A DNA stretch of 64,000 bases from Gluconacetobacter takamatsuzukensis. Its GTDB lineage: Bacteria; Pseudomonadota; Alphaproteobacteria; Acetobacterales; Acetobacteraceae. The notes under the pieces are model-generated. The model saw only the letters and a list, made by a program, of their open reading frames with translations, was not told the DNA's origin and searched no databases. The DNA lies in assembly GCF_014174275.1 (NCBI RefSeq), contig NZ_JABEQK010000002.1:310001-374000 (forward strand), read 5' to 3'. Position numbers and translations under genes: made by a program. Below are positions 9,917 to 29,450 of the stretch, one piece after another. Positions within the stretch are counted from its first letter, which is position 1. Every line of letters starts with the position of its first letter.

Positions 9917-10840
9917 ATGATCGACATCATCGTTCTCGGCGCGGCCGCCGGCGGCGGCTTTCCGCAATGGAATTCCAATGCAGCCGGGTGCCGACGCGCC
10001 CGCGCGGGCGACCCCGACGCCCTGCCCCGGACCCAGGCCTCAATCGCCATCAGCGGCGACGGCACCCACTGGTTCGTCGTCAACGCCTCGCCCGACCTGC
10101 GCACGCAGATCAACCAGACGCCGGCGCTGCACCCGCATCAGGGCCTGCGCTCCACCCCCATCGCCGGGGTGATCCTGACCGGCGGCGAGGTCGATACCGT
10201 GACCGGCCTGCTCACCCTGCGCGAGCGCCAGCCCTTCACCCTGCTGGGCACCCGCCCGGTGCTGGACCTGCTGGACGCCAACCCGATCTTCGAGGCCCTG
10301 GACCGCGCCATCGTGCCGCGCCTGGCCCTGGCGCTGGACCAGCCCTACCCGCTCGCCCTGCCCGACGGAAAACCGGCCGGGCTGACGATCACCCCCTTCG
10401 CGGTACCCGGCAAGGTGCCGCTCTATGCCGAAACCGGCCCCGACCCCGCCGCCATCGTCGAAAATGGCGAGACGGTGGGGCTGGCGATCACCGACGGCAC
10501 ACGCCATGTCTTCTTCATTCCCGGCTGCGCCCGCATGACCGACGCGCTGCGGGCCCGCCTGCGGGGGGCGGATATCGTGTTCTTTGACGGCACATTGTGG
10601 ACCGACGACGAAATGCTGCGCGCAGGCGTGGGGCAGAAGACCGGCCAGCGCATGGGCCACATGTCCGTCAGCGGCACCGACGGCACCATCCACGCGCTCT
10701 CCGACCTCGAAATCGGGCGCAGGATCCTGATCCACATCAACAATTCCAACCCCGTCCTGCTGGCCGACAGCCCCGAGCGCGCCGCCGCGCGCGACGCGGG
10801 ATGGGACGTGGCCTTCGACGGCATGAGGATGACGGCATGA
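9917..10840 (+). CDS. pqqB: PQQ biosynthesis protein PqqB
   Basis: A 307-residue metallo-beta-lactamase-fold oxygenase. In PQQ synthesis it hydroxylates the tyrosine part of the Glu-Tyr intermediate. The N-terminus IIVLGAAAGGGFPQWNSNA is diagnostic, and the metal-site region LTGGEVDTVTGLLTLRE replaces the hydrolase H-x-H-x-D-H motif as in true PqqB. The C-terminus has KTGQRMGHMSVSG and ILIHINNSNPVLL. Its stop overlaps the pqqC start (ATGA). Confidence 0.97.
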   Translation: MIDIIVLGAAAGGGFPQWNSNAAGCRRARAGDPDALPRTQASIAISGDGTHWFVVNASPDLRTQINQTPALHPHQGLRSTPIAGVILTGGEVDTVTGLLTLRERQPFTLLGTRPVLDLLDANPIFEALDRAIVPRLALALDQPYPLALPDGKPAGLTITPFAVPGKVPLYAETGPDPAAIVENGETVGLAITDGTRHVFFIPGCARMTDALRARLRGADIVFFDGTLWTDDEMLRAGVGQKTGQRMGHMSVSGTDGTIHALSDLEIGRRILIHINNSNPVLLADSPERAAARDAGWDVAFDGMRMTA

Positions 10841-11574
10841 CCAGCCTTCCGCTTTCCCCGGACGAACTGGAGGCCGCGCTGCGTGCCATCGGCGCCGCCC
10901 GCTACCACAATCTGCACCCGTTCCACCGCGCGCTGCATGACGGGCGGCTGACCCGGGGCCAGGTGCAGGCCTGGGCGCTGAACCGCTATTATTACCAGTG
11001 CCGCATCCCCGCCAAGGACGCGACGCTGCTGGCCCGGCTGCCCACGGCAGAGCTGCGGCGCGAATGGCGGCGCCGCCTGGTCGATCACGACGGCGACGCG
11101 CCGGGCACCGGCGGCGTGGCCCGCTGGCTGAAGCTCACCGACGGCGTCGGGCTGGACCGCGCCTATGTCGAGTCGCTGGAAGGGCTGCTGCCCGCCACCC
11201 GCTTCGCCGTCGATGCCTATGTGGAGTTCGTGCGCGACCGCTCGATCCTGGAGGCCATCGCCTCGTCCCTGACCGAGCTGTTCTCGCCCACCATCATCAG
11301 CGAGCGCGTGTCGGGCATGCTGCACCATTATGATTTCGTCACCCCGGAAACGCTGGCCTATTTCCAGCCCCGGCTGACCCAGGCCCCCCGCGATTCCGAC
11401 TTCGCCCTGGCCTATGTCCGCGAACACGCCCGCACCGTGGCCGAGCAGAAATCGGTGCTGGACGCGCTGACCTTCAAATGCGCCGTACTGTGGTCGATGC
11501 TGGACGCGCTGGATTACGCCTATGTCGTCCCCGGCCGCATCCCCCCCGGCGCCTTCACGCCCGACCCCGCATGA
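10837..11574 (+). CDS. pqqC: pyrroloquinoline-quinone synthase PqqC
   Basis: A 245-residue cofactor-free oxidase that carries out the final ring closure and eight-electron oxidation to PQQ. Helical-bundle family landmarks are clear: RYHNLHPFHRALHDGRLTRG, LNRYYYQCRIPAKDATLLAR, and SGMLHHYDFVTPETLAYFQP. The start overlaps the pqqB stop and its own stop overlaps the pqqD start, so pqqB-C-D-E are translationally coupled. Confidence 0.97.
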   Translation: MTSLPLSPDELEAALRAIGAARYHNLHPFHRALHDGRLTRGQVQAWALNRYYYQCRIPAKDATLLARLPTAELRREWRRRLVDHDGDAPGTGGVARWLKLTDGVGLDRAYVESLEGLLPATRFAVDAYVEFVRDRSILEAIASSLTELFSPTIISERVSGMLHHYDFVTPETLAYFQPRLTQAPRDSDFALAYVREHARTVAEQKSVLDALTFKCAVLWSMLDALDYAYVVPGRIPPGAFTPDPA

Positions 11575-11867
11575 CCGACGCCCCCGCCCCGCCGCCGGTC
11601 GCCGAAGACACGGTCGTCCGCTTCCTGCGCGGGACCCGCCTGCAACATGACCGGGTGCGCGACCAGTGGGTGATCCAGGCACCGGAACGCGCCTTCATCG
11701 CCGACCCGATCGCCGCCGAGATCCTGCGCCTGGTTGACGGCACGCGCCCGGTCGCCGCCATCATCGACATCCTGGCCCAACGCTTCGCCGCCCCGCGCCC
11801 GGTCATCGCCCACGACGTGCTGGAAATGATCGCCAGCCTGGCCCAGCGGCAGGTACTGACCGCATGA
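11571..11867 (+). CDS. pqqD: PqqA-binding chaperone PqqD
   Basis: A 98-residue RiPP recognition element that binds PqqA and delivers it to PqqE. The family pattern is visible in [20 protein letters not shown] and [19 protein letters not shown]. The ATG at 11571 overlaps the pqqC stop; the ORF continues upstream but that part is out of the family. Its end overlaps pqqE by 4 nt. Confidence 0.95.
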
Positions 11868-12964
11868 CCCACATCCCCGTCCCACCGCCCATGAGCCTGC
11901 TGGCCGAGCTGACGCACCGCTGTCCGCTCCAGTGCCCGTACTGCTCCAACCCGCTGGCGCTGGACGGGCGGGAGCACGAACTCACCACCGACGACTGGCT
12001 CCGCGTGCTGGAACAGGCGGCCGAACTCGGCGTGCTCCAGGTCCATTTCTCCGGCGGCGAGCCGATGGCCCGCCGCGACCTGCCCGACCTCGTGCGCCGC
12101 GCCGCAGCGCTGGGGCTGTACACCAACCTCATCACCTCCGGCGTGCTGCTGACCGAGGCCACCCTGGCCCAGCTGGCCGAGGCCGGGCTGGACCATGTGC
12201 AGCTCTCGTTCCAGGACGTCGACACCGCCCCGGCCGAAACCATGGGCGGCATGCCCGGCGCGCAGGAAAAGAAGCTGGCCGCCGCGCGCCTGATCGTGGC
12301 CGAAGGCATGCCGCTGACGACCAATTTCGTCATCCATCGCGGCAATGTCGGCCGCATCGGCCGCATGCTCGACCTGGCGGTCTCGCTGGGCGCCCGCCGG
12401 GCCGAAATCGCCCATACCCAGTATTACGGCTGGGGCCTCGTCAACCGCGCCGCCCTGATGCCCAGCCGCGCCCAGCTCGAAGAAGCAACCCGCGCGGTCG
12501 AGGACGCCCGCACCCGTCTGGCGGGCACGCTGGCCATCGACTACGTCACCCCCGACTACTACGCCGACCAGCCCAAGCCCTGCATGGGCGGCTGGGGCCG
12601 GCGCTTCGTCAATATCTCGCCCACCGGCCACGTCCTGCCCTGCCACGCCGCCGAGACGATCAAGAGCGTCCCCATCCCCGACATCCGCACCGACAGCCTG
12701 GCCGCCATCTGGGCCGACGCCCCCCTGTTCCGCCTGTTTCGCGGCACGGACTGGATGCCCGAACCCTGTCGCGGCTGCGACCTGCGCGAACAGGATTGGG
12801 GCGGCTGCCGCTGCCAGGCCCTGGCCCTGCTGGGCGACGCCGCGGCAACCGACCCGGTCTGCACCCGCTCGCCCGACCACGCCCGGATCAGCAGGATCCT
12901 GGCCGACCTGCCGGAGACACCGCCGCCACTGGTCTATCGCCGGTACGGCAACGCGCCGGGGTAG
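11864..12964 (+). CDS. pqqE: PqqA peptide cyclase PqqE (radical SAM)
   Basis: A 366-residue radical-SAM/SPASM enzyme that crosslinks Glu and Tyr of PqqA. The SAM cluster motif is [12 protein letters not shown] (C-x3-C-x2-C) near residues 20-27. Auxiliary-cluster cysteines appear in the C-terminal half ([35 protein letters not shown]). It is the last gene of the operon; no pqqF/pqqG protease gene follows. R1 repeat copy 2 lies right after the stop. Confidence 0.97.
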
Positions 12965-15974: not shown

Positions 15975-16591
15975 CTTCGTCAAGCACCCATCGCGCCGCG
16001 TTGCAGCCCCAGCGCGCGGTCGGCCGCCAGCGGGTGGCGGAATTGCTGGCGGCGGCCTCCGACCTCATCGCCGAACGCGGCTACGAGGCCACGACCATGG
16101 CCGCGATCGCCGAGCGTGCCGGCGCCCGGATCGGGTCCCTCTATCGTTTTTTCCCGAACAAGGAGGCAATCGCCGATACCCTGCTGCGCCGGCATCTCGA
16201 CATATTGCGCGAGGCCTATGACGCGCTCGGCCACCGCGCGGCTGGCGCCACGCCCCAGGAACTGGCCGATATCCTGATCGATCTCCTGGCCACGCTTTAT
16301 CCGCGTGTGAAATCGCTGCCCGCCCTGATGGATGTCCGCACCGACCGGACCGAACTCAGCCGCCAGTCGCGGGCCACGGCCCTGGGCGGCATTTCCGCCG
16401 CGCTGCGCGCCTGCGCGCCGAAGCTTGACCCGCGGGAGGCCGACGATATCGCAACCGTCGTGCTCAACAACATGAAGACGATGCTGGGCATGGTCCTGAA
16501 CACCGCACCGACATCACCCGGCGCGCCGGACGAGCTGCGCCTGATGAACCGGCTCTACCTCGCCGCCCGCCTGGCGCCTGCCCTCGGCTAG
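15965..16591 (+). CDS. TetR/AcrR family transcriptional regulator
   Basis: 208 residues. The N-terminal HTH is classical: AAASDLIAERGYEATTMAAI then AGARIGSLYRFFPNKEAIAD. The C-terminal ligand domain is of the TetR_C type with no recognisable ligand specificity. It is divergent from the isochorismatase-fold/MFS pair, with two matching operators in between, so it is most likely a local repressor. The start codon lies inside operator 2. Its stop overlaps the converging serine hydrolase gene by 4 nt. Confidence 0.9.
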   Translation: MGSTSSSTHRAALQPQRAVGRQRVAELLAAASDLIAERGYEATTMAAIAERAGARIGSLYRFFPNKEAIADTLLRRHLDILREAYDALGHRAAGATPQELADILIDLLATLYPRVKSLPALMDVRTDRTELSRQSRATALGGISAALRACAPKLDPREADDIATVVLNNMKTMLGMVLNTAPTSPGAPDELRLMNRLYLAARLAPALG

Positions 16592-17514
16592 GGACCGCCA
16601 AGGCGGCGGTGATAGGCCGTGAAGACCGTCCCGGAAACCGCATTCAGCACCCGGATCCCCGCCGCCTCGTCCGGCAGGTCGCGGCTGAGTTCCACGAGGA
16701 TATAATGCGCCCCGTTCGGCAGGAACACGATCGCGGCGTCGTTGCGCACGCCGTTGACCCACCCGGTCTTGTGCGCCACCGGCGTCCCGCCGGGCAGGGG
16801 AGGCGGAATGATATCGTTGAAGGTCTGGCCCAGCATGATGCTGATCATGGCCCGGCTTTCCTCGGGCCCCACGATGGCCCCCTGGTCCAGCTTCTGCAGG
16901 AACCCGCCCAGCCCGCGCGCCGTGACGCGATTGCGGATGCCCTGGGCATCGGCATCGAAATCCTCGATCATCCGGCCGAAGACGATGCCCTCCAGCCCCT
17001 GCCGCGCCACGACGGCGCGAATGGGCAGCACCCCCAGCCGCTCGATCATCAGGTTGGTCGCAAGATTGCTGCTGTACTGGATCATGACCCGCAGCAATTC
17101 GATCACCGTGACAGGCTGGCCCGCCTGGGCATAGAGCGGATCGTAGGAATCCTCCTTCTGGTCGAGCGCGAAACTGCCCGTGCCGACCAGCGAGTGGAAA
17201 CGGTTATGGACGACAATCGCCTCGTCGGGCTTCAGCGTGCCGTCGCGAAAGGCGGCATAGGCGGCATCCATCACAAACAGCTTGATGGTGCTGGCGGCAT
17301 TGATCGGCTCGTCGCAATGCAGGCACACATCCGGCGCCTTCCCCGACGGCGCGGCATAGACGGCGAAGAAACCCGGCCGCCCGTCCACGATCCGCGCCAC
17401 CGAATCCGCCATCGCGTCCGCGCGGGCCGCCCACGCCACCCCGGCCGGAAGCGCCAGCCCGCACAGGACGGCACCGGCGCGGATCAGCCAGAATCGAAAT
17501 CCGGATAGCGGCAC
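16588..17514 (-). CDS. class A beta-lactamase-like serine hydrolase, exported
   Basis: About 308 residues from a GTG start preceded by GAGGAG. This gives a clean signal peptide (PLSGFRFWLIRAGAVLCGLA then LPAGVAWA). Penicillin-binding fold motifs are present: S-x-x-K as STIK near residue 75, SSN in QYSSNLATN, and KTG in VAHKTGWVNG. The omega-loop glutamate of true class A beta-lactamases is not evident, so it may be a peptidase or esterase relative. ATGs further upstream (17574, 17601) would place extra residues before the signal. It converges with tetR and diverges from the D-amino-acid-oxidase-like gene. Confidence 0.82.
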   Translation of the reverse strand: MPLSGFRFWLIRAGAVLCGLALPAGVAWAARADAMADSVARIVDGRPGFFAVYAAPSGKAPDVCLHCDEPINAASTIKLFVMDAAYAAFRDGTLKPDEAIVVHNRFHSLVGTGSFALDQKEDSYDPLYAQAGQPVTVIELLRVMIQYSSNLATNLMIERLGVLPIRAVVARQGLEGIVFGRMIEDFDADAQGIRNRVTARGLGGFLQKLDQGAIVGPEESRAMISIMLGQTFNDIIPPPLPGGTPVAHKTGWVNGVRNDAAIVFLPNGAHYILVELSRDLPDEAAGIRVLNAVSGTVFTAYHRRLGGP

Positions 17515-17693
17515 GGTCACTCTCCTCGGGCATGGAGCCACGCATTGCGAAACCGTTATAATCTTCGTTTTCATGCCCGACCAATTCACCGAGATTCCCA
17601 TGCCTTAGCCTTGGGTTATCACCTGTGGAAAAGTTTCGCCTTCCTAAGCGGGCCACGATCGGCGAAGGAGGAAGGAGCGATCGACAAGGGGCT

Positions 17694-17810: not shown

Positions 17811-19055
17811 ATGGATACAGGCAGGATTTCACGCCGGGGCGTGTTCGCGGGCGGCGCCGCACTGGGCGCCGTGGCCATGATGGCGGGCGAGCGCACCCTC
17901 TTGCCCCACAGCGCCACGGCAGGGGACGCACTTGTCCCGCCGCATCGCCCCCGTCTGGCACCGCTGCACCCGCGCGTGGACCAGATCACCGACCTCAAGG
18001 TCTGCATCCGCCCCTTTCGCGCCGCCGGCCCCCGGCTGGATGTCGAGCGGATCGGCGACAAGACGATCTTCCATAATTACGGCCATGGCGGCAGCGGCTG
18101 GTCCCTGTCCTGGGGGTCGGCCAACCTGGTGGTCGGCAATGTGGCGGCCACGCTGCACCGCAAGGTCGCGGTCATCGGCTGCGGCATCGTCGGGCTGACA
18201 AGCGCGCTCACGGCACAGCGCGCGGGCTTCGACGTGACGATCTACACGCGCGACCTGCTGCCCCACACGCGCTCGGTCCGCGCGAACGGAAGCTGGACCC
18301 CGGATTCCCGCATCGCCCTGACCCAGACCGCCGGCCCCGCCTTCGCCGACCAGTGGGAGCAGATGGCCCGTTTTTCCTGGGCGACCTACCGCACCTATCT
18401 CGGCCTGCCCGGCGCGCCGATCATGTTCGAGGATAATTACATCCTCTCCGACAAGCCTTTCGACGACCGGCCCGCCCCACCCCCGCCCGCCGGCGCCCCC
18501 GGAACGATGCCGCGCGCTACCGAGGATTTCGCAACCTACGAAAGCAGGATCCGCGACATCGTCCCGGCCGTCGAGGATATTCCCGACGCCGAGAACCCCT
18601 TCGCCGCTCCGCATGCGCGGCGTCATTCCCTGATGATCTACAATTTCGGCGCCTACGGCCATTTGCTGCTGTCCGAATTCCATCAGGCCGGCGGCCGCAT
18701 CGTCATCCGCGAATTCCATACCCCCCACGACCTGGCCTCGCTGCCCGAAAAGGCGATCATCAACTGCCCCGGCTACGCGGCGCGGGAATGGTGGCGCGAC
18801 GACAGCCTGATCCCCGTCCGGGGCCAGACGGCCTGGCTGCCGCCCCGGCCCGAGGCCCCGTACGGCCTCGATTACCGGGGCGCCGCCCTGCTGTCGAAGA
18901 CCGACGGCGTCATGATCCAGGCCGTGGACCTGGACGGGCTGGGCGAAATGACGGGCGTGGGCAACAGTTTCGAACATCCCGACCCGGCGGAAGCCGCGCG
19001 CGCCATCGGCGTGTTCGCCGACCTGTTCGCCCGCATGCCGATGGTGGGCGGCTGA
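17811..19055 (+). CDS. Tat-exported D-amino-acid-oxidase-like flavoprotein, apparently circularly permuted
   Basis: 414 residues with a twin-arginine signal (ISRRGVFAGGAALGA). Unusually, the D-amino-acid oxidase C-terminal signature, an RPFR arginine block and HNYGHGGSGWSLSWG, lies at residues 68-102. That is before the FAD Rossmann motif VAVIGCGIVGL (about 119-129). The rest follows the normal DAO order: INCPGYAARE, then PVRGQ near residue 337, then a final helix. The ordinary C-terminal segment is absent from the end. This fits circular permutation of the DAO fold. A cytochrome c gene starts 2 nt later, suggesting a periplasmic dehydrogenase rather than an oxidase. The ATG at 17787 is an alternative start. 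Confidence 0.85.
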   Translation: MDTGRISRRGVFAGGAALGAVAMMAGERTLLPHSATAGDALVPPHRPRLAPLHPRVDQITDLKVCIRPFRAAGPRLDVERIGDKTIFHNYGHGGSGWSLSWGSANLVVGNVAATLHRKVAVIGCGIVGLTSALTAQRAGFDVTIYTRDLLPHTRSVRANGSWTPDSRIALTQTAGPAFADQWEQMARFSWATYRTYLGLPGAPIMFEDNYILSDKPFDDRPAPPPPAGAPGTMPRATEDFATYESRIRDIVPAVEDIPDAENPFAAPHARRHSLMIYNFGAYGHLLLSEFHQAGGRIVIREFHTPHDLASLPEKAIINCPGYAAREWWRDDSLIPVRGQTAWLPPRPEAPYGLDYRGAALLSKTDGVMIQAVDLDGLGEMTGVGNSFEHPDPAEAARAIGVFADLFARMPMVGG

Positions 19056-19056
19056 C

Positions 19057-19410
19057 ATGACGATGCGCCAGGCCATCCTCTTCACCCTCATCGCCCTCCT
19101 GCCCGGCATCGCCTCGGCCCGCCCGGCCGCCGAGGCGACCCACGGCGCCGACCTCTACCGCGCGGCATGCGCGATGTGCCATGGCCCGACGCTGGAGGGC
19201 AATTTCCAGACCCCGGCCCTGACCGGCCGCTTCGTCGCGAACTGGGCGGGCGCCCCGGTGGCGGAACTGGAATCCTATGTCCATCGCGCCATGCCGCTGA
19301 TGGCGCCGGGCACATTGTCGCCGGAAGATACACGGGCCATCGTCGCGTTCCTGCTCCAGGCGAACGGGCTTGCGCAGGGCGGAACCATACGGCGGGTCCA
19401 TCCCTCGTGA
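19057..19410 (+). CDS. periplasmic c-type cytochrome, partner of the flavoprotein
   Basis: 117 residues. The signal peptide is MRQAILFTLIALLPGIASA. One haem site is CAMCH, with the distal methionine probably in AMPLMAPGTLS. Length and layout are those of a small class I monohaem cytochrome. It starts 2 nt after the stop of the DAO-like gene, so the two are co-expressed. The obvious inference is that it takes electrons from the exported flavoprotein. An R2 repeat follows directly. Confidence 0.9.
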   Translation: MTMRQAILFTLIALLPGIASARPAAEATHGADLYRAACAMCHGPTLEGNFQTPALTGRFVANWAGAPVAELESYVHRAMPLMAPGTLSPEDTRAIVAFLLQANGLAQGGTIRRVHPS

Positions 19411-19577: not shown

Positions 19578-20468
19578 ATGCGCCTGCGCCAGATCGAAGT
19601 CTTCTACGCGATCATGACGACGGGCTCGCTCCGGCGTGCCGCCGAACTGCTGCATGTCTCGCAGCCGGCCGCCAGCAAGGTTCTGCGCTACGCCGAACAA
19701 TCGCTGGGCTTCGCATTGTTCGAGCGCGCGGGCGGCCGGCTGGTACCGACGCGCGAGGCCCGCATCATGCTGCCGCACGTCAACGCCATTTTCGAAAAAC
19801 TGTCGGACCTCAAACGCCTGACCGACAATCTGCGCTATGCGCGCGACGGGCATTCCATCAGCATCGGCTGCGTGCCCAGCCTGGGGCTCAGCCTGGTACC
19901 GCGCGTGGTCCAGCGCTACCGCGCCGCCCATCCGGGCATGGAACTGACGATCGACGCGCTGCACGGCACGGAAATCGTGTCGCGTATCCTCAACCACGAT
20001 CTCGACCTCGGCATCGTGTTCGGCGACTATTCGCGTGACGGACTGACCGCGCTGCATATCGCGGATATCCCGCTGCTGATGATCGACCGCGAAGGCGGAG
20101 GCGGCCCCGTCAGCCTCTCCGCGATCGACCCCGCCCGCTATATCGGGCTGAGCGAGAACGATCCCACGGCCCGCCTGCTCGACATGGCGCTGGACGAGGC
20201 CGGAATTCCCACCACGCCCCCGGTGCGGGTGCGCACCCATTTCATGGCGGCCGAACTCGTGCGCCTCGGCGGGGGCTGCGCCATCGTCGATGCCCTGACC
20301 GCATTGCATCACCCGGGCCTGCCCCGGCCGCGCCCGCTCTCCCCGCCGCTGGACGTGACCTGCACCGTCCTGTTCCGCGCCGACCATGCGCTGTCGCATA
20401 TCTCGCAGAACATCCTCGCCCTGCTGCGCAGCGAACTCGAAATCGACCTGGCCGCGCTGGCGGAATGA
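19578..20468 (+). CDS. LysR family transcriptional regulator
   Basis: 296 residues. The N-terminal HTH reads MRLRQIEVFYAIMTTGSLRR then AAELLHVSQPAASKVLRYAE, close to the LysR/NocR/OccR group that responds to amino acids and opines. The C-terminal half is a periplasmic-binding-like effector domain. It lies inside the cluster of D-amino-acid and amide-hydrolysing genes, all on the same strand, so it is the likely local activator. No T-N11-A operator was assigned. Confidence 0.9.
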   Translation: MRLRQIEVFYAIMTTGSLRRAAELLHVSQPAASKVLRYAEQSLGFALFERAGGRLVPTREARIMLPHVNAIFEKLSDLKRLTDNLRYARDGHSISIGCVPSLGLSLVPRVVQRYRAAHPGMELTIDALHGTEIVSRILNHDLDLGIVFGDYSRDGLTALHIADIPLLMIDREGGGGPVSLSAIDPARYIGLSENDPTARLLDMALDEAGIPTTPPVRVRTHFMAAELVRLGGGCAIVDALTALHHPGLPRPRPLSPPLDVTCTVLFRADHALSHISQNILALLRSELEIDLAALAE

Positions 20469-20611: not shown

Positions 20612-22231
20612 ATGATCCAGCGTTTCCGATATGCGTGCATGATGGCCGTCCCGGCGGCCGCCCTCCTGTCCGCCTCGTGCCCCGCCCGCGCGGCCTCCCT
20701 GCCGCCGGGCCTGACGGAGCAGGAAATCGCCACGACGGTCGAACGCGCCCGCCAGGCCTTCAACGTGCCGGGCGTCGCGGTGGCGGTGGTGCATGACGGG
20801 CAGATCGTGTTCAGCCACGGCTACGGGCGCCGGGCCGAGGACAAGGCCAGCGCGCCGGTCGACGGGCGCACGCTGTTCGCCATCGGGTCGAACACCAAGG
20901 AATTCACCGCGACGGCGCTGGCGCAACTGGTCGAGCAGGGCAAGCTGGACTGGAACGACCGCGTGATCGACCATATGCCGGAATTCCGCGTCGCCGATCC
21001 GTCGATCACGCGCGATTTCCGGGTGTCGGACCTGCTGACCCACCATAGCGGCATGGGCCTGGGCGCGGGCGACCTGATGCTGTTCTCCCACAGCACGCTC
21101 ACCCGGCCGGAAGTCCTGGCCGGCCTGCCCTTCATGCCCTTCACCGCGCCGTTCCGCACCCAGTACGCCTACAACAACCTTCTCTATGTCGTGGCCGGCG
21201 CCCTGGTCGAGCGGCTGACGGGGCAAAGCTGGGAAGAGGTGGTCCAGAAACGGCTGATCGACGCGGCCGGCCTGCCCGCCTGCCAGAGCACGCCCCCGGT
21301 CAGGGGCCAGACGGACGTCGCCACCGGCGAAGGCGAAAGCGGCGCCCTGCCCGACAAGGCCACGCGCCTGCTGCCCGCCGTGGCCCCCGCCGGCGGCATC
21401 TGGTGCAGTGCCGACGGCATGGCGCGCTGGGCCCAGACCTATCTCGCCGGCGGCCGCGCGCCGGACGGCAGGCAGGTCTTCAGCCAGGCCAGCCGCGACG
21501 CGCTGTGGGCACCGCACGCCCTGCTGCCGCTGCCCAGCACGGCAGAGGCGACCAGAACCCATTTCCGCGCCTATGGCTATGGCTGGTTCATGGAGGATTT
21601 CTTCGGCTACAAGCGCGTGTGGCACACCGGCACCATCGACGGCATGGTCAGCTACGTGACCTTCCTGCCGGAACAGAAGACCGGCATCGTCATCCTGACC
21701 AACCATGACGACTACAACGCGACCTATTCCATCGCGACGACCCTCAGCGCCTATGTCGCCACCGGCACCAGCGCGGACTGGGTCGCCCACTGGCGGGATG
21801 CCAAGAACGCCGAAGACGCGGCGACGGCCAAGGCGGCCACCACCACCGGCCCCGGCTCGCCCGCGCGCCCCTTCATCACGCTGTCCGAAAGCGCGCGGCA
21901 GGAATACGCGGGCACCTATCGCGACGATTGGCGCGGCCCGATCACCGTCAGCCTGCGAGGGCAGGACCTGCGCATGGCATTCAGCCACGCCGATGGCCTG
22001 GCGGGAACCCTCTCGGCCCTGCCGCACGACCTGTTCGTCGTCCGGTGGGACGATCGCGGGCAGGATGCCGAAGACGATTCCTATGTGCAGTTCGAACGCG
22101 ATGTCTCGGGCAAGGTGGTGGGCATGAGCATGCGCGTGATCGGGTCCGATTTCAGCTTCGATGCGCAGGATCTGCACCCCAGGAAGGAAGCCTCTTCTTT
22201 TTCTGAAGAAAAAGAAGCAAAAAGACTTTGA
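20612..22231 (+). CDS. secreted class C beta-lactamase-fold serine hydrolase
   Basis: 539 residues. The signal peptide lies near MMAVPAAALLSASCPARA. The active-site S-x-x-K is SNTK (IGSNTKEFTATAL), the Y-x-N is YAYNN, and HTG occurs in RVWHTGTIDGM. A C-terminal beta-rich domain (about residues 430-530) resembles DUF3471/lipocalin-like tails of D-aminopeptidase and PBP4-like hydrolases. The last 12 or so residues (SSFSEEKEAKRL) are encoded by R2 repeat copy 2, so the natural C-terminus was probably replaced. D-peptidase, esterase or beta-lactamase activity are all possible. Confidence 0.85.
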   Translation: MIQRFRYACMMAVPAAALLSASCPARAASLPPGLTEQEIATTVERARQAFNVPGVAVAVVHDGQIVFSHGYGRRAEDKASAPVDGRTLFAIGSNTKEFTATALAQLVEQGKLDWNDRVIDHMPEFRVADPSITRDFRVSDLLTHHSGMGLGAGDLMLFSHSTLTRPEVLAGLPFMPFTAPFRTQYAYNNLLYVVAGALVERLTGQSWEEVVQKRLIDAAGLPACQSTPPVRGQTDVATGEGESGALPDKATRLLPAVAPAGGIWCSADGMARWAQTYLAGGRAPDGRQVFSQASRDALWAPHALLPLPSTAEATRTHFRAYGYGWFMEDFFGYKRVWHTGTIDGMVSYVTFLPEQKTGIVILTNHDDYNATYSIATTLSAYVATGTSADWVAHWRDAKNAEDAATAKAATTTGPGSPARPFITLSESARQEYAGTYRDDWRGPITVSLRGQDLRMAFSHADGLAGTLSALPHDLFVVRWDDRGQDAEDDSYVQFERDVSGKVVGMSMRVIGSDFSFDAQDLHPRKEASSFSEEKEAKRL

Positions 22232-22482: not shown

Positions 22483-23703
22483 ATGGCCGGCAGACGGACC
22501 ATCACCATCATCGGCGGGGGCGTCATCGGTCTCGCCGCCGCCTATGCCCTCGTCCGCGACGGGCACACGGTCACACTGGTCGAGCGTGGCGAGGATGTCG
22601 GGCGGGAAGCCAGTTTCGCGAATGGCGGCCAGCTCAGCTACCATTATGTCAGCCCGCTGGCCGATGCCGGCGTGGCGCGCGACGCGCTGGGCTGGCTGCT
22701 GCGCCCGCAGGCGCCGATCGCGCTGCGGCTGCGGGCCGATCCGCGCCAGTGGCGCTGGCTGCTCGCCTTTCTCCACGCCTGCAACCGGCACATGAATCGC
22801 AAGAATGCCGCGATCCTGCTCGATCTTGCACTGAGCGGACAGGCGGAACTCCAGACATGGCGCAACGCCGGACTGGACGATTTCCTGTGGCGCCGCCCGG
22901 GCAAGCTGGTGCTGTATCGCGACGCATCGACCTTCCGCAAGGCGGCACGCGCCGTCACCGATCCGAATGGGCAGCGCACCCTGTCGCCGTCCGAATGCGC
23001 GGCGGTCGAACCCGCATTCGCGGGATTGCAGCCCCGGCTCGCGGGCGGGATCTTCTCGCCGGACGACGAGGTCGGGGATTGTTTCCTGTTCTGCACCGCC
23101 TTGCGCAAGGCCCTGTCGGCGGAACCGGGCTTTCGCCTGGTGCGGGGCACGGCCACGCTCGGCCCCGGCCCGGCCGGCCGATGCGCCGTCGGCGTCGATG
23201 GCCGCCCGTTCGAGACCGATCTGGTCGTCCTCGCGGCCGGCATCGCCTCGCGCGCGCTGGCACAGCCGCTGGGGATCGACCTGCCGCTTTACGGCCTGAA
23301 AGGCTACAGCCTCACCACGCGGCCACCGCCCGGCACCGTGCCCTCGGTCAGCGTGACGGATTACGACAATCGCGTGGTCTATGCCGGGCTGGGCGACCGG
23401 CTGCGGGTGGCCGCGATGGTCGATATCGGGTCGGAAGACACGGTACCGGACCCAAGGCGCCTCGCGGCACTGCGCGCACTGGTCGCGGAAACGCTGCCGG
23501 GGGCGCTGGGGCAGGGCGAGGACACGCCATGGGCCGGGCTGCGCCCCGCAACGCCGACCGGCGTCCCGGTGATCGGGCGAACCCGCTACGGCAACCTGCT
23601 GCTCAATGTCGGCCACGGCGCCCTCGGCTTCACATTGTCGGTCGGCTCGGCCATGCGGCTGAAAGAGATCGTGTCCGGGGCCGACGCCCGGGCCATCGGG
23701 TAA
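22483..23703 (+). CDS. DadA-like D-amino acid dehydrogenase
   Basis: A 406-residue FAD oxidoreductase. The N-terminal fold is TITIIGGGVIGLAAAYALVR. DadA-type landmarks include SFANGGQLSYHYVSPLAD, YGLKGYSLT, and the C-terminal PTGVPVIGRTRYGNLLLNVG then HGALGFTLS. DadA enzymes oxidatively deaminate D-amino acids to 2-oxo acids and pass electrons to the respiratory chain. It has no signal peptide, so it acts from the cytoplasmic side, unlike the Tat-exported DAO-like enzyme nearby. It is the first gene of a tight four-gene unit ending with the S9 peptidase. Confidence 0.9.
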   Translation: MAGRRTITIIGGGVIGLAAAYALVRDGHTVTLVERGEDVGREASFANGGQLSYHYVSPLADAGVARDALGWLLRPQAPIALRLRADPRQWRWLLAFLHACNRHMNRKNAAILLDLALSGQAELQTWRNAGLDDFLWRRPGKLVLYRDASTFRKAARAVTDPNGQRTLSPSECAAVEPAFAGLQPRLAGGIFSPDDEVGDCFLFCTALRKALSAEPGFRLVRGTATLGPGPAGRCAVGVDGRPFETDLVVLAAGIASRALAQPLGIDLPLYGLKGYSLTTRPPPGTVPSVSVTDYDNRVVYAGLGDRLRVAAMVDIGSEDTVPDPRRLAALRALVAETLPGALGQGEDTPWAGLRPATPTGVPVIGRTRYGNLLLNVGHGALGFTLSVGSAMRLKEIVSGADARAIG

Positions 23704-23719: not shown

Positions 23720-26107
23720 ATGCAGGCAACCCGTCGCGCGGTTCTTCTCGGCGGCGTCGCCGCAACCCTGTCCCTGCCGATGCGCGGCGCCGGGGCAGCA
23801 ACCTCCCTCCCGGTCCTGCCCGGCCTCGCCCAGCCGGTCGAGATTCTGGAAGATCGCTGGGGCGTCCCGCATGTACGCGCCCGCACCATCCCCGACGCCT
23901 TCTTCGCGGATGGGTATCTGGTGGCGCGGGACCGGCTGTGGGAGCTCGATTTCGGCCACCGCCGGTCGCTGGGGCGGCTGGCCGAACTGTTCGGCCCGGC
24001 CTTCGTGCCGTCCGATACGGCCAACCGGCTGGTGCTGTTCCGGGGCGATGCCGGGCGCGAACTCGCCGCCTTTTCGCCGCTGGTGCAGGCATGCGCGCGC
24101 GCCTATGTCGCCGGCATCAACGCCCGGATCGCCGAGGTCACGGCCACGCCGGCCCTCCTGCCGCCCGAATTCGCCCTTTTCGCCTGCACGCCGCTGGAAT
24201 GGGACGCGCTGGACCTGATCCGCATCCGCGCCGAGGTCACGGGCAACACCAGCGCCGAAATCCGCCGCGCACAGCTGGCCGCACGCGGCGCGCTGGCCTA
24301 CGATACGATCATGACCCCGCTGGAACCCGCCCACACGCTGCGGGTGCCCGACGGGCTGGATGTCGGCGCGGTCGGTGTGGGCGATCTGGGGCTGTTCGCG
24401 GTGCTGCAAGCCCCCCTGCCGCTGCAAGGCCTGCACGCGGCGGCCGAGGACGCGACGCGGCGACGGAACGAAGGCAGCAATGCGTGGGTCATCGCCCCCA
24501 GCCGTACCGCCACCGGCCGGCCGATCCTGGCAAACGATCCGCATCTGGAATTCGGCGCGCCGGGCCCGCGCCATGTCGTGCATCTGACGGCACCGGGGCT
24601 GGACGTCATCGGCGGCGGCTCGGCGGGCATGCCGGGCGTGATGCAAGGCCACAATGCAAGGATCGCCTTCGGCCGCACGAATTTCCATATCGACCAGGAA
24701 GATCTGTTCATCCTCCGCACCGACCCGCACGACCCGCTGCGCTACGCCCACCAGGGCGGCTGGAAGCGCATGGAACAGGTCGAGACACGGATCGCGGTCC
24801 ACGGCGAGCCCGACCGGGTGGTAAGCCTCTTCCATTCGGTGCACGGGCCGGTGGTATCGCGCGATCCGGCACGCAACCGCGCAACGGCGGTGTCGGCCAC
24901 CTGGCTGGCACCGGGCGCGAACGGCCTGCTGGCCAATATCGGCATCAACCTCGCCCATGACTGGCCGAGCTTCCGCGAGGCATTGCGGGTCCATACCAGC
25001 CCGACCAATTTCACCTACGCCGATATCGACGGCAATATCGGCTGGCAGGCCGCAGGCGGCCTGCCCCACCGCGCCGACGGCCATGACGGGCTGATGCCCG
25101 CGCCGGGCGACGGCCGGTACGACTGGCAGGGGCTCCAGCCGCTGGAGGCGCTGCCCAGCAGCTTCAACCCGGCGCGCGGCTGGTTCGGCAACTCCAACGA
25201 AATGAACCTGCCCCCCGACTACCCGGCGGAACAGCGCCGCGTCAGCTTCGAATGGCGCGACCGGTTCCGTCACGAGCGCGTGGCCCAGATGCTGGACGCA
25301 ACCCCGCGCGCCACGCTGGCCGACAGCGTGGCGCTGCAACACGACACCCTGTCCGTGCCGGCCCTGCAAATGGTGCGGCTGCTGCCCGACCTCCCGCCCG
25401 CACTGGCCGCCGAGGCCGCGCTGCTGCGGGCCTGGAACGGCCGCGTGGACGCCGACAGCGCGGCGGCGGCGCTGTACGAAGTCTGGTGGACCCGGCTGGA
25501 ACGCGCGCTGCACGCGCTGATCATCCCTCCGTCGCTGCGCGACCTGCTGCCCGGCCCGGTGGGCGCCACGGTGCAGCTTTCCCTGTTCCAGTCACCCGAT
25601 TCCCGGTTCGGCCCCGACCCGGCACAGGGGCGGGACAGGATGCTGGCCGACACGTTCGGCGCGGCGGTGGCCGAACTGCGCACGCGCCTGGGCCCCCTGC
25701 CGGCCGCATGGCGATGGGGGGCGCTGCACACCATCACGCTGCACCACCCGCTGGCCACGGTCCCGGCCGTGGCGGCCGCCTTTCCCGCCATCGGCGGCCC
25801 GGCCGCGCAAAGCGGCGGCGACCCCTACACCGTCATGGCCCGCTGGTACAGCCCGCACGCGGGCGGCCCGAATGCCTACGCCGCAACGGGCGGGGCAAGC
25901 TACCTGATGGTGTGCGATGTCGGGGACTGGGACAAATCCCTGTTCCTCAATTTCCCCGGCCAGTCGGCGGACCCGCATTCGCCGCATTACGCCGATTTCC
26001 TGCCCGTCTGGCTGCGCGGCGCCATGCAGCCACTGTCCTTCGGCACCCACAGCGTCAACGCCGCCGCCGTCCGGCGGCTGACCCTCCAGCCGGAGAAACC
26101 GCGATGA
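23720..26107 (+). CDS. penicillin acylase family Ntn hydrolase, Tat-exported
   Basis: A 795-residue proenzyme. A twin-arginine-type signal (ATRRAVLLGGVAATLSL) is followed by an alpha-chain region and the autocleavage site. The nucleophile is Ser253 in EGSNAWVI, with PILANDPHLEF just after. The beta chain has typical family blocks such as GNIGWQAAGGLP and WFGNSNEMNLP. Family members hydrolyse amide bonds of penicillins, N-acyl-homoserine lactones or N-acyl peptides. Specificity cannot be set from sequence. It starts 16 nt after dadA and overlaps the next gene by 4 nt. Confidence 0.92.
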   Translation: MQATRRAVLLGGVAATLSLPMRGAGAATSLPVLPGLAQPVEILEDRWGVPHVRARTIPDAFFADGYLVARDRLWELDFGHRRSLGRLAELFGPAFVPSDTANRLVLFRGDAGRELAAFSPLVQACARAYVAGINARIAEVTATPALLPPEFALFACTPLEWDALDLIRIRAEVTGNTSAEIRRAQLAARGALAYDTIMTPLEPAHTLRVPDGLDVGAVGVGDLGLFAVLQAPLPLQGLHAAAEDATRRRNEGSNAWVIAPSRTATGRPILANDPHLEFGAPGPRHVVHLTAPGLDVIGGGSAGMPGVMQGHNARIAFGRTNFHIDQEDLFILRTDPHDPLRYAHQGGWKRMEQVETRIAVHGEPDRVVSLFHSVHGPVVSRDPARNRATAVSATWLAPGANGLLANIGINLAHDWPSFREALRVHTSPTNFTYADIDGNIGWQAAGGLPHRADGHDGLMPAPGDGRYDWQGLQPLEALPSSFNPARGWFGNSNEMNLPPDYPAEQRRVSFEWRDRFRHERVAQMLDATPRATLADSVALQHDTLSVPALQMVRLLPDLPPALAAEAALLRAWNGRVDADSAAAALYEVWWTRLERALHALIIPPSLRDLLPGPVGATVQLSLFQSPDSRFGPDPAQGRDRMLADTFGAAVAELRTRLGPLPAAWRWGALHTITLHHPLATVPAVAAAFPAIGGPAAQSGGDPYTVMARWYSPHAGGPNAYAATGGASYLMVCDVGDWDKSLFLNFPGQSADPHSPHYADFLPVWLRGAMQPLSFGTHSVNAAAVRRLTLQPEKPR

Positions 26108-27383: not shown

Positions 27384-29450
27384 ATGCCCATCCGATCCTC
27401 CCTTCTGGCCGCCACCGCCCTGCTGGCCATCACCATCGTCCCCGCCCACGCCACGCCGGCGGAGGACGCACCCCGCCTGGCCGGCCTGCTGGCCATGCCC
27501 TACGCCACCGGCATGGCCGGCGCGGCCGACGCGCCCCGCGTGGCGTGGGTGGAACGCCGGGGCGGCGTGCGCAACATCCTGGTCTCGGACGGCGGCGCGG
27601 CCCCGCACCGCGTCACGGCCTACACGCAGGATGACGGAACCGACCTCTGGGGCCTCGCCCTCAGCCCGGACGGCCAGATGCTCGCCTTCGTCGAAGGCGG
27701 CGACCCGGAATATTCCAACGACGCCCCGCCCAATGCCGGCAATGCGCCGGTCCCGGGCAAGCAGACGGTGCGCGTCGTCCTGCCCGACGGGCACATCGTC
27801 ACGGCGGGGGAGGGATATGCGCCCACCTTCTCGCCGGACGGAAAACTGCTGGCCTTCGCCCATGGCGGCACGCTGCTGGTCGGCAGGGCAGGGGGCAGCG
27901 CGCGGGCGGTGCTGACGACACCGGGCGCGATCACCGCCCTGCATTGGTCGCCCGACGGCACAAGGCTGGCCATCGAGATCGATCGCGGCTCGCACGCCCT
28001 CATCGCATTGTGGCAGCCGAAGGCCGCCGACGCGCCGCCCGTCTTCCTGCCCGCCGCCATGGCGCACGACCGGATGCCGGCCTTCTCGTGGGACGGCCAC
28101 ACCATCGCCTTCGTCCGCACGCGCGATCCCCTGCTGACGGCGGAACCGGGGAAGGGGCGCTTCTGGTCGGTGCAGGCCTACGACATCGCCACCGGCACCG
28201 AACGCACGCTCTGGACAGCGCCGGAAGGCGCGGGCAGCCGCTTCTGGGCGCCGGAAGGCGTCGGCCTGTCCTGGACCCGCGACGGCCGGCTGCTCCTCCC
28301 GTGGGAGGGCAGCGGCTGGCTGCGCCTCTGCGCGCTCCCGGTCGCGGCCAATCCGGCGGAACCACGCTGCCTGACGCCGGACGGCGCCGAAATCGCCTCC
28401 TACCGCCTCGCGGCCGATGGCACGCACCTGCTCTATACCGCCAATGCCGGCGATCCGGACCATTGGCGCGCCTGGTCCCAGCCGCTCGACGGCGGCCCCG
28501 CCAGCCCGCTGACGGGCGAGGACGAACAGGTGATGGACCTCGTCACGGCCGGCCCCGCCATCGCGGTCACGGCCACGGGCATCACGCAGCCCGCCCATCC
28601 GGTCGTGCTTCGGGACGGCACCCGCCGGCTACCGGTCGCCCCCGCGTCCCCCGAAGGGTTCACCTTCGTCGCCCCCCGGATCGTGCATGTCCACAGCGAG
28701 GACGGGCGCGACATCCACGGGCAATTGTTCCTGCCCCCGGCCGGCACGCCCGGCCCGCACCCGGCCCTGATCTTCGTCCATGGCGGCCCGGAGCGGCAGA
28801 TGCTGCCGGCCTTCCACCCGATGGGGTATTATTCCAACGCCTATCTCATGAACCAGCTCATGGCGGCACGCGGCTATGTCGTGCTGTCGGTGAATTATCG
28901 CAGCGGAACCGGCTACGGCCTGGCCTTCCGCGACGCCCCCGGCATCGGCCGCGCCGGCGCCACCGAATATCGCGACGTGCATGCGGCCGGCCTGTACCTG
29001 CGCGCCCGCCCCGACGTGATCCCGGGCCGGATCGGCATCTGGGGCGGAAGCTGGGGCGGCTACCTCACGGCACTGGCCCTGGCCCGCGACAGCGGCCTGT
29101 TCGCCGCCGGGGCCGATTTCCACGGCGTGCACGACCTGACCGAGCCCGACCATCCCGGCCTGTCGCCCGAAGAAAAACAGCAGGCGCGGGTCTCCGAATG
29201 GCAATCGTCCCCCGCCGCCGACGTCGCGCACTGGCATGCACCGGTGCTGCTGGTCCACGGCGACGACGACCGCACGGTGGAATTCGAACAATCCGTCCTG
29301 CTGGCCCGCATGCTGACGGCACTGAACGTCCCGTTCGAGGACCACGCCCTTCCCGCCGAGCGCCACGCCTTCCTGCGCGCGCAGGACTGGCAGACCGCCT
29401 ATCTGTGGACCATGCGCTTCTTCGACACCAACCTGCCGAGCGCGCCCTAG
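27384..29450 (+). CDS. secreted S9 family (prolyl oligopeptidase-like) peptidase
   Basis: 688 residues. The signal peptide is PIRSSLLAATALLAITIVPA. An N-terminal beta-propeller (WD40-like repeats such as WGLALSPDGQMLAF) caps a C-terminal alpha/beta hydrolase. The catalytic Ser is near residue 556 in GGSWGGY, the Asp in HGDDDRTVEF and the His in AERHAF. This matches acylaminoacyl- and dipeptidyl-peptidases acting on short peptides. It is the last gene of the dadA unit, and its stop overlaps the converging chvG gene by 4 nt. Confidence 0.93.
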   Translation: MPIRSSLLAATALLAITIVPAHATPAEDAPRLAGLLAMPYATGMAGAADAPRVAWVERRGGVRNILVSDGGAAPHRVTAYTQDDGTDLWGLALSPDGQMLAFVEGGDPEYSNDAPPNAGNAPVPGKQTVRVVLPDGHIVTAGEGYAPTFSPDGKLLAFAHGGTLLVGRAGGSARAVLTTPGAITALHWSPDGTRLAIEIDRGSHALIALWQPKAADAPPVFLPAAMAHDRMPAFSWDGHTIAFVRTRDPLLTAEPGKGRFWSVQAYDIATGTERTLWTAPEGAGSRFWAPEGVGLSWTRDGRLLLPWEGSGWLRLCALPVAANPAEPRCLTPDGAEIASYRLAADGTHLLYTANAGDPDHWRAWSQPLDGGPASPLTGEDEQVMDLVTAGPAIAVTATGITQPAHPVVLRDGTRRLPVAPASPEGFTFVAPRIVHVHSEDGRDIHGQLFLPPAGTPGPHPALIFVHGGPERQMLPAFHPMGYYSNAYLMNQLMAARGYVVLSVNYRSGTGYGLAFRDAPGIGRAGATEYRDVHAAGLYLRARPDVIPGRIGIWGGSWGGYLTALALARDSGLFAAGADFHGVHDLTEPDHPGLSPEEKQQARVSEWQSSPAADVAHWHAPVLLVHGDDDRTVEFEQSVLLARMLTALNVPFEDHALPAERHAFLRAQDWQTAYLWTMRFFDTNLPSAP

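Follow-up and report, generated by a model that had tools for sequence, protein, structure and literature searches.

Can the fold of D-amino acid oxidase (DAO), a textbook enzyme applied in biosensing and in the production of antibiotics, be encoded with its C-terminal part at the front of the chain, and can such an enzyme be exported and wired to a cytochrome c? This question is raised by a gene of Gluconacetobacter takamatsuzukensis that lies in a window of 64,000 nucleotides, which is the whole stretch of DNA analysed here. A sequence-only reading of the locus had proposed a circularly permuted, Tat-exported DAO-like enzyme that is followed by its own cytochrome c gene, and had taken the pair for a periplasmic D-amino acid dehydrogenase wired to the respiratory chain. 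The analysis supports this proposal in part. The features that bear on this proposal are collected in Table 1.

Table 1. Genes and protein segments at the locus, with coordinates given as positions in the window
Feature	Position	Strand	Remarks
Beta-lactamase2-family (PF13354) gene	16588-17601	divergent	Adjoins the permuted gene in six Gluconacetobacter loci
Permuted DAO-fold flavoenzyme	17811-19055	+	414 aa; ATG at 17811, stop at 19053-19055
Tat-type signal region, SRRGVF	17811-17927	+	Residues 1-39; low pLDDT; outside the modelled fold
Displaced module	17958-18149	+	Residues 50-113; by alignment, DAO residues about 270-340
R67-P-F-R70	18009-18020	+	R67 aligned with the substrate-carboxylate Arg
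HNYGHGG, DAO C-terminal signature	18072-18092	+	Residues 88-94
Junction, old C-terminal helix into old N-terminal strand	18150-18161	+	Residues 114-117
Part superposed on pig DAO 1-269	18159-19034	+	Residues 117-408; Rossmann GCGIVG (123-128) near its start
A359, column of the DAO carboxylate Tyr	18885-18887	+	MAFFT alignment
Monohaem cytochrome c	19057-19410	+	117 aa; CAMCH at 19168-19182; likely Met ligand in AMPLMAPG
LysR-type regulator	19578-20468	+	167 nt past the cytochrome gene; syntenic context
Serine hydrolase, beta-lactamase family (PF00144 + DUF3471)	20612-22231	+	Context
Canonical-order DadA-like D-amino acid dehydrogenase homologue	22483-23703	+	Context
Penicillin-amidase family hydrolase	23720-26107	+	Context
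S9-type peptidase	27384-29450	+	Context

Circular permutation of the DAO fold

Both the R67-P-F-R70 block and the H88-N-Y-G-H-G-G94 loop lie N-terminal of the Rossmann motif GCGIVG (residues 123-128), and the usual DAO order is therefore swapped. The proposed placement of the DAO C-terminal signature ahead of the FAD Rossmann motif was borne out, with one correction to its limits, as the block spans residues 67-102 and not 68-102. The normal C-terminal copy is indeed absent: the signature occurs once in the ORF and is not repeated at the C-terminus, where the chain ends in a helix (residues 392-407) that the aligner places ahead of DAO residue 269. With an assumed chain offset of 2, R67 would fall on R285 of RgDAAO.

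When the genome was searched with the Pfam DAO model, positions 288-350 of the model were encountered first within one gene, followed by positions 1-71. In the native protein, hmmscan finds PF01266 in two stretches, the better of which aligns residues 118-406 with model positions 1-297, and the score of 72.6 bits is above the curated cut-off of 27.9. Moving residues 46-114 to the end of the protein leaves one Pfam DAO match, from residue 4 to residue 362 on positions 1-350 of the 353 in the model, and the score becomes 77.7 bits.

Against the sequences of the PDB, the best 17 rows from phmmer are all DAO or D-aspartate oxidase (DASPO). Residues 64-115 align with positions 325-376 of the fungal DAO 7ct4 from Rasamsonia (piece E 6e-6), while residues 116-191 align with positions 6-81 of the Rhodotorula DAO 1c0i (piece E 1e-4). 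Taken alone, the long remaining piece (residues 118-341 on 7ct4 25-240) is weak, with a piece E of 8, and a further weak piece places residues 63-81 on positions 283-301 of the Rhodotorula DAO chain. Rotation of the protein gave no bit gain in phmmer against the PDB (39.9 vs 41.7), but the match to 7ct4, previously in two stretches, then became continuous. The swapped phmmer pieces on DAO chains and the single Pfam match on rotation led us to reject chance convergence as the source of the motif.

As a control, each protein was rotated in steps of 3 residues, and all of its rotations were scored with a profile of six canonical bacterial DAOs. The best cut fell at most 7 residues from the Rossmann start, with a gain of at least 20 bits, in 31 of the 44 permuted proteins (described below), and cuts slightly farther from that start scored only slightly lower. 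For the canonical DAOs (7/7, six of them members of the profile), it fell at most 6 residues from the native ends. No single-domain gain was obtained in 13 of the 44, and the protein of the window is one of these (69.7 to 69.9 bits); its pieces are joined by Pfam only.

Since the swapped-order Pfam matches fuse on rotation and two swapped pieces align with DAO/DASPO chains, it is confirmed at the level of sequence that the gene encodes a circularly permuted DAO fold. The permutation is real and, as described below, conserved.

Predicted structure

Two AF2 models of the protein were obtained, one from 9 sequences (pLDDT 77.5, pTM 0.79) and another from 33 sequences (pLDDT 87.3, pTM 0.85), with block mean pLDDT values of 96-98 across residues 51-110 in the latter. 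The best 33 rows from Foldseek and the best 17 from VIA are all DAO or DASPO. In a sequential superposition, model residues 117-408 fall on residues 1-269 of pig DAO (Z 19.8, rmsd 2.7 Å, 249 residues), and the corresponding values for DASPO are Z 20.7 and 2.8 Å over 254 residues. This superposition, together with the single Pfam match of the rotated protein, agrees with the earlier claim that the remainder of the fold keeps its order. Neither model residues before 117 nor DAO residues after 269 are paired by the sequential superposition. Residues 50-113 are modelled as three strands and a helix (E61-70, E78-81, E84-88, H100-112) and, given the confidence of the model and the motifs that they carry, are predicted to occupy the position of the DAO C-terminus in three dimensions.

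Distribution and origin of the permuted proteins

The window gene is found in six named Gluconacetobacter species at 85-94% identity, and a single Caulobacter MAG has it at 48%. At E <= 0.001, 22 of 60 relatives give a match, and many of these matches are short. The gene is patchy within the genus, since a strong full-length match was obtained in 7 of the 13 same-genus genomes (G001-G013). Wider samples of the class and the phylum, which overlap each other and include the window's own genome, contain matches to profile A1 (E <= 1e-20) in 14 of 385 and 20 of 398 genomes, respectively; profile A2 (E <= 1e-15) matched 16 of the 385 class genomes, one of them with a canonical protein. Plasmid records add Niveispirillum, Bradyrhizobium, Rhizobium, Mesorhizobium (frameshifted), Kozakia, and the actinomycete Nonomuraea.

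Counting ORFs of at least 180 aa with the H-x-Y signature gave 51 distinct sequences. In 44 of these the signature precedes the Rossmann motif, and in 7 it is at the C-terminus; L076, L092, L094, L137, and L138 were assigned to one or the other set by signature position. Conservation of the signature in these 51 rows is partly a matter of selection because only H-x-Y-bearing ORFs were kept, and the set leaves out relatives without the signature, a broken copy on contig 8 of G010, and further paralogues of G002, G004, G007, and G010. The 44 permuted ORFs, several of which are near-copies within Gluconacetobacter, span the Alphaproteobacteria, another proteobacterial class, and one actinomycete. 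The survey of homologues that the sequence-only reading had called for found the N-terminal placement in these 44 ORFs. The spacing between the signature His and the Rossmann Gly is nearly constant among them, being 35 residues in 37 of the 44, 39 in five, and 34 and 41 in one each.

In a tree built from rotated sequences, a branch with support of 100/100, present in 200/200 bootstrap trees, separates the permuted rows from the canonical ones; long branches are seen for L137, L138, and L089. A single, early origin of the permutation is favoured rather than proved, because the seven canonical rows make a thin outgroup. A canonical profile matched 21 of 299 Pseudomonadota genomes, and among the signature-bearing ORFs at the loci retrieved from these matches none has the signature in canonical order. 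The class sample yielded one canonical-order case (G272, L138).

Individual sequences deserve separate mention. Streptomyces BHT-5-2 (L092) was rejected as a permuted case, because tblastn had joined two pieces and the ORF itself is in canonical order. The copy of Mesorhizobium onobrychidis (L091:3974-5037) is annotated as two genes; natural fission was likewise rejected, the break being a frameshift inside the Rossmann motif. L137 (G169) is a very divergent permuted relative with the longest branch in the tree, and its N-terminus is Sec-like, not Tat-like, by eye.

Putative export signals and the adjacent cytochrome c

The N-terminus of the window protein has the sequence SRRGVF followed by a hydrophobic stretch, and all 9 homologues in the alignment keep the RR pair. 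The motif is Tat-like and marks a putative twin-arginine signal. The match to Pfam TAT_signal is weak (E 0.35, 11.4 bits, under the cut-off of 22.7). Among the 44 permuted ORFs, an RR pattern is found in 37, a lipobox-like motif in 22, and both in 21, where the patterns are loose and the start codons are not fixed. The RR pattern errs in both directions: the RR of L079 was missed, and those of L072 and L130 are not Tat-like by eye. Clade A (30 rows, including the window protein) mostly carries an RR signal, often followed by a lipobox-like Cys outside the Gluconacetobacter/Kozakia rows, while four of the five members of a second set (L066, L067, L068, L086, L088) have no visible signal. Most permuted members therefore look Tat-exported, judging by these motifs, and the permutation as such is not tied to export, as permuted relatives without a visible signal exist.

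The cytochrome c gene that had been placed 2 nt downstream is adjacent and co-directional and has a CAMCH motif, but the gap is 1 nt. All ten rows of the Gluconacetobacter/Kozakia clade, those of the second paralogue type among them, have a CxxCH ORF directly downstream of the permuted gene, and the spacing by first start codon is 1 nt in four of these, 4 nt in three, and an overlap in three. The partner cytochromes of the clade are 62-85% identical to that of the window over 79-95 residues, and all ten have both CxxCH and an MAPG segment with the likely Met ligand. By sequence, the closest solved relative of the window's cytochrome is PDB 2xts chain B (E 1.8e-10).

The scan for cytochromes covers 43 of the 44 permuted members (L089 was left out), and none of the 33 members outside the clade has an adjacent cytochrome c, including L076 (G014) from the window's own family. 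One other CxxCH ORF was found within 2 kb; it lies 1.6 kb off in L069 and is unlike the partner cytochromes. A general tie of the permuted fold to cytochrome c was therefore rejected, as the pairing is limited to one clade: with 33 of 43 scanned members lacking it, the permutation is not tied to an adjacent cytochrome c. The pattern supports the view of the cytochrome c as a putative lineage-specific electron acceptor and not as a trait common to the family. Six same-genus genomes contain a second type of permuted gene, which is 65-70% identical; in the two loci inspected, L071 (G001) and L072 (G005), it has its own cytochrome c.

Gene neighbourhood

The same gene order is kept in all six Gluconacetobacter loci (L029-L034): the beta-lactamase-like gene, the permuted gene, cytochrome c, LysR, the S12 hydrolase, the DadA homologue, and the penicillin-amidase homologue. 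The order in Kozakia is LysR, S12, DadA homologue, S12, S9, permuted gene, and cytochrome c, so that the hydrolase/DadA cluster is partly kept; S15 and TonB receptor genes follow the cytochrome c gene on the opposite strand. The hydrolase cluster is missing beside the pair of the second paralogue (L071, L072) and beside most other members, and a TonB receptor gene adjoins the L072 pair. In one other genus, two genomes (L075, L080) have S9 genes at 26-27% identity beside the permuted gene. Together with an isochorismatase-like match in L082, these S9 genes were all that tblastn at 1e-8 returned outside Gluconacetobacter and Kozakia, and the idea that the hydrolase cluster generally accompanies the permuted fold was rejected.

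Because the cluster is absent beside L071, L072, and most members, and lies at least 167 nt from the pair, a shared operon or pathway with the hydrolases is not established. For the Gluconacetobacter/Kozakia locus only, the gene content hints at a possible role in the breakdown of peptides or acylated amines.

Other neighbours were observed as well. A D-2-hydroxyacid-dehydrogenase-like gene lies near the permuted gene in 4 of 24 clustered neighbourhoods from two genera (L074, L075, L079, L080; one was tested by Pfam). At positions 9917-12964 of the window, ORF starts are pqqB- and pqqE-like by eye (PQQ biosynthesis), in keeping with periplasmic oxidation.

Pocket residues and substrate

All 51 aligned rows have Arg at the position of R67. 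More variation is seen in the MAFFT column of the DAO carboxylate Tyr: Tyr is found in 1 of 30 rows of clade A, in 14 of 14 other permuted rows, and in 5 of 7 canonical rows, the other two having Phe. The window protein has A359 in this column, which is that of Y223 in RgDAAO and Y228 in the pig enzyme. Since this column is changed in clade A, the exported subclade has probably shifted its substrate. With the carboxylate Tyr lost, the plain D-amino-acid reading is weakened, and a D-amino acid is a doubtful substrate for the window enzyme. The substrate probably still has a carboxylate that is read by R67, but the pocket appears unlike that of true DAO.

In Bradyrhizobium, Rhizobium, Mesorhizobium, and Nonomuraea, the permuted gene is followed by that of a thiamine-diphosphate enzyme, for which the best NCBIfam model in the two cases tested, below its cut-off, is indolepyruvate/phenylpyruvate decarboxylase. 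Such a decarboxylase-like neighbour fits an amino-acid oxidase that delivers a 2-oxo acid. On the plasmids L066, L067, L068, and L091, the permuted genes that precede this thiamine-diphosphate 2-oxo-acid decarboxylase-like gene have no visible export signal. In L066 and L068, a gene for an FAD-binding oxidoreductase lies upstream of the permuted gene, and is of the berberine-bridge type by Pfam in L068.

Proposed mechanism and alternative explanations

The best reading, which we consider fairly probable, is that of a permuted DAO-fold dehydrogenase exported by Tat, with its own cytochrome c as electron acceptor. The DAO C-terminal module, with the substrate Arg and the HNYGHGG loop, precedes the Rossmann domain and is joined to it by a short, near-constant junction. 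Judging from the motifs, FAD uptake and folding would take place in the cytoplasm, and Tat export would follow. In Gluconacetobacter and Kozakia, the gene pairing suggests that the reduced flavin is reoxidised in the periplasm by the co-encoded cytochrome c; the enzyme would therefore be a dehydrogenase rather than an H2O2-forming oxidase. The substrate might come from peptides, or from acylated or beta-lactam-like compounds, cut by the neighbouring hydrolases, which is the weakest step and is suggested by gene context.

The electron acceptor could be a different one. The same permuted fold might act as an O2-using oxidase or a quinone-linked dehydrogenase, while the adjacent cytochrome c serves otherwise or only joins the general pool. 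Canonical DAO uses O2, no cytochrome c gene adjoins 33 of the 43 permuted members scanned, and the lipobox-like motif in 22 of 44 would hold proteins at the membrane; however, the pair is kept in every one of the ten Gluconacetobacter/Kozakia rows, even with the second paralogue type, and we regard this explanation as rather unlikely. A domain-swapped oligomer, in which the displaced module would complete the active site of another subunit and not that of its own chain, is compatible with a prediction made for a monomer, but the short, near-constant junction and the high-confidence monomer model leave little slack for it, which makes it improbable.

The loss of the carboxylate Tyr in the subclade would agree with a flavoprotein that has no turnover of its own, for example, a sensor. 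Yet an Arg kept throughout the R67 column and the pairing with an electron carrier argue against such a role, and its probability is very low. Hardly any weight can be given to an assembly or frameshift artefact: a frameshifted relative does exist in Mesorhizobium, but nothing of the kind is seen for the window gene itself, and the explanation is refuted by conservation, as this order recurs in 44 distinct ORFs that come from many assemblies.

The exported, cytochrome-coupled dehydrogenase can be extended to a broader proposal that is possible, if doubtful. The permuted proteins would be an old, separate bacterial branch of DAO, of which the window subclade oxidises something other than free D-amino acids (e.g., D-residues at the ends of peptides, or derivatives of the amide, ester, or beta-lactam type that the neighbouring hydrolases release) and passes the electrons straight to cytochrome c. 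This would be a DAO-fold dehydrogenase of the flavocytochrome type that has not been described before.

Comparison with known systems

To our knowledge, whole catalytic flavoenzymes are rarely found as natural circular permutants, and a search of the open-licence literature did not find a report of a permuted DAO. The permuted branch, which probably arose once, includes both exported and apparently cytosolic members and so offers a natural experiment on the joint evolution of new chain ends, export, and electron acceptor. For acetic acid bacteria, the enzyme would be a further candidate for the periplasmic use of amine substrates. The Kozakia record illustrates that the label 'FAD-dependent oxidoreductase' can hide a rearranged fold.

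The best sequence and fold matches of the window enzyme are DAO and DASPO, with which it has in common the Pfam DAO fold, the RPxR and HNYGHGG motifs, and the substrate Arg. It differs from them in the changed order of the chain, the export signal, the replacement of the carboxylate Tyr in the subclade, and the pairing with cytochrome c in one clade. DadA is another respiratory dehydrogenase with FAD and the DAO fold, and resembles the proposed enzyme in these respects; DadA is, however, quinone-linked. The DadA-type homologue in the window (PRK00711, under cut-off) has the canonical order, with the loop NVGHGALG at its C-terminus and no extension before the Rossmann motif. The pairing proposed here, of a periplasmic flavin subunit with its own c-type cytochrome, is known from p-cresol methylhydroxylase and flavocytochrome c sulfide dehydrogenase, the flavoprotein folds of which are not that of DAO. 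The closest solved relative of the cytochrome, 2xts chain B, is presumably SoxD of the sulfane dehydrogenase SoxCD, which, unlike the window cytochrome, serves a molybdenum enzyme.
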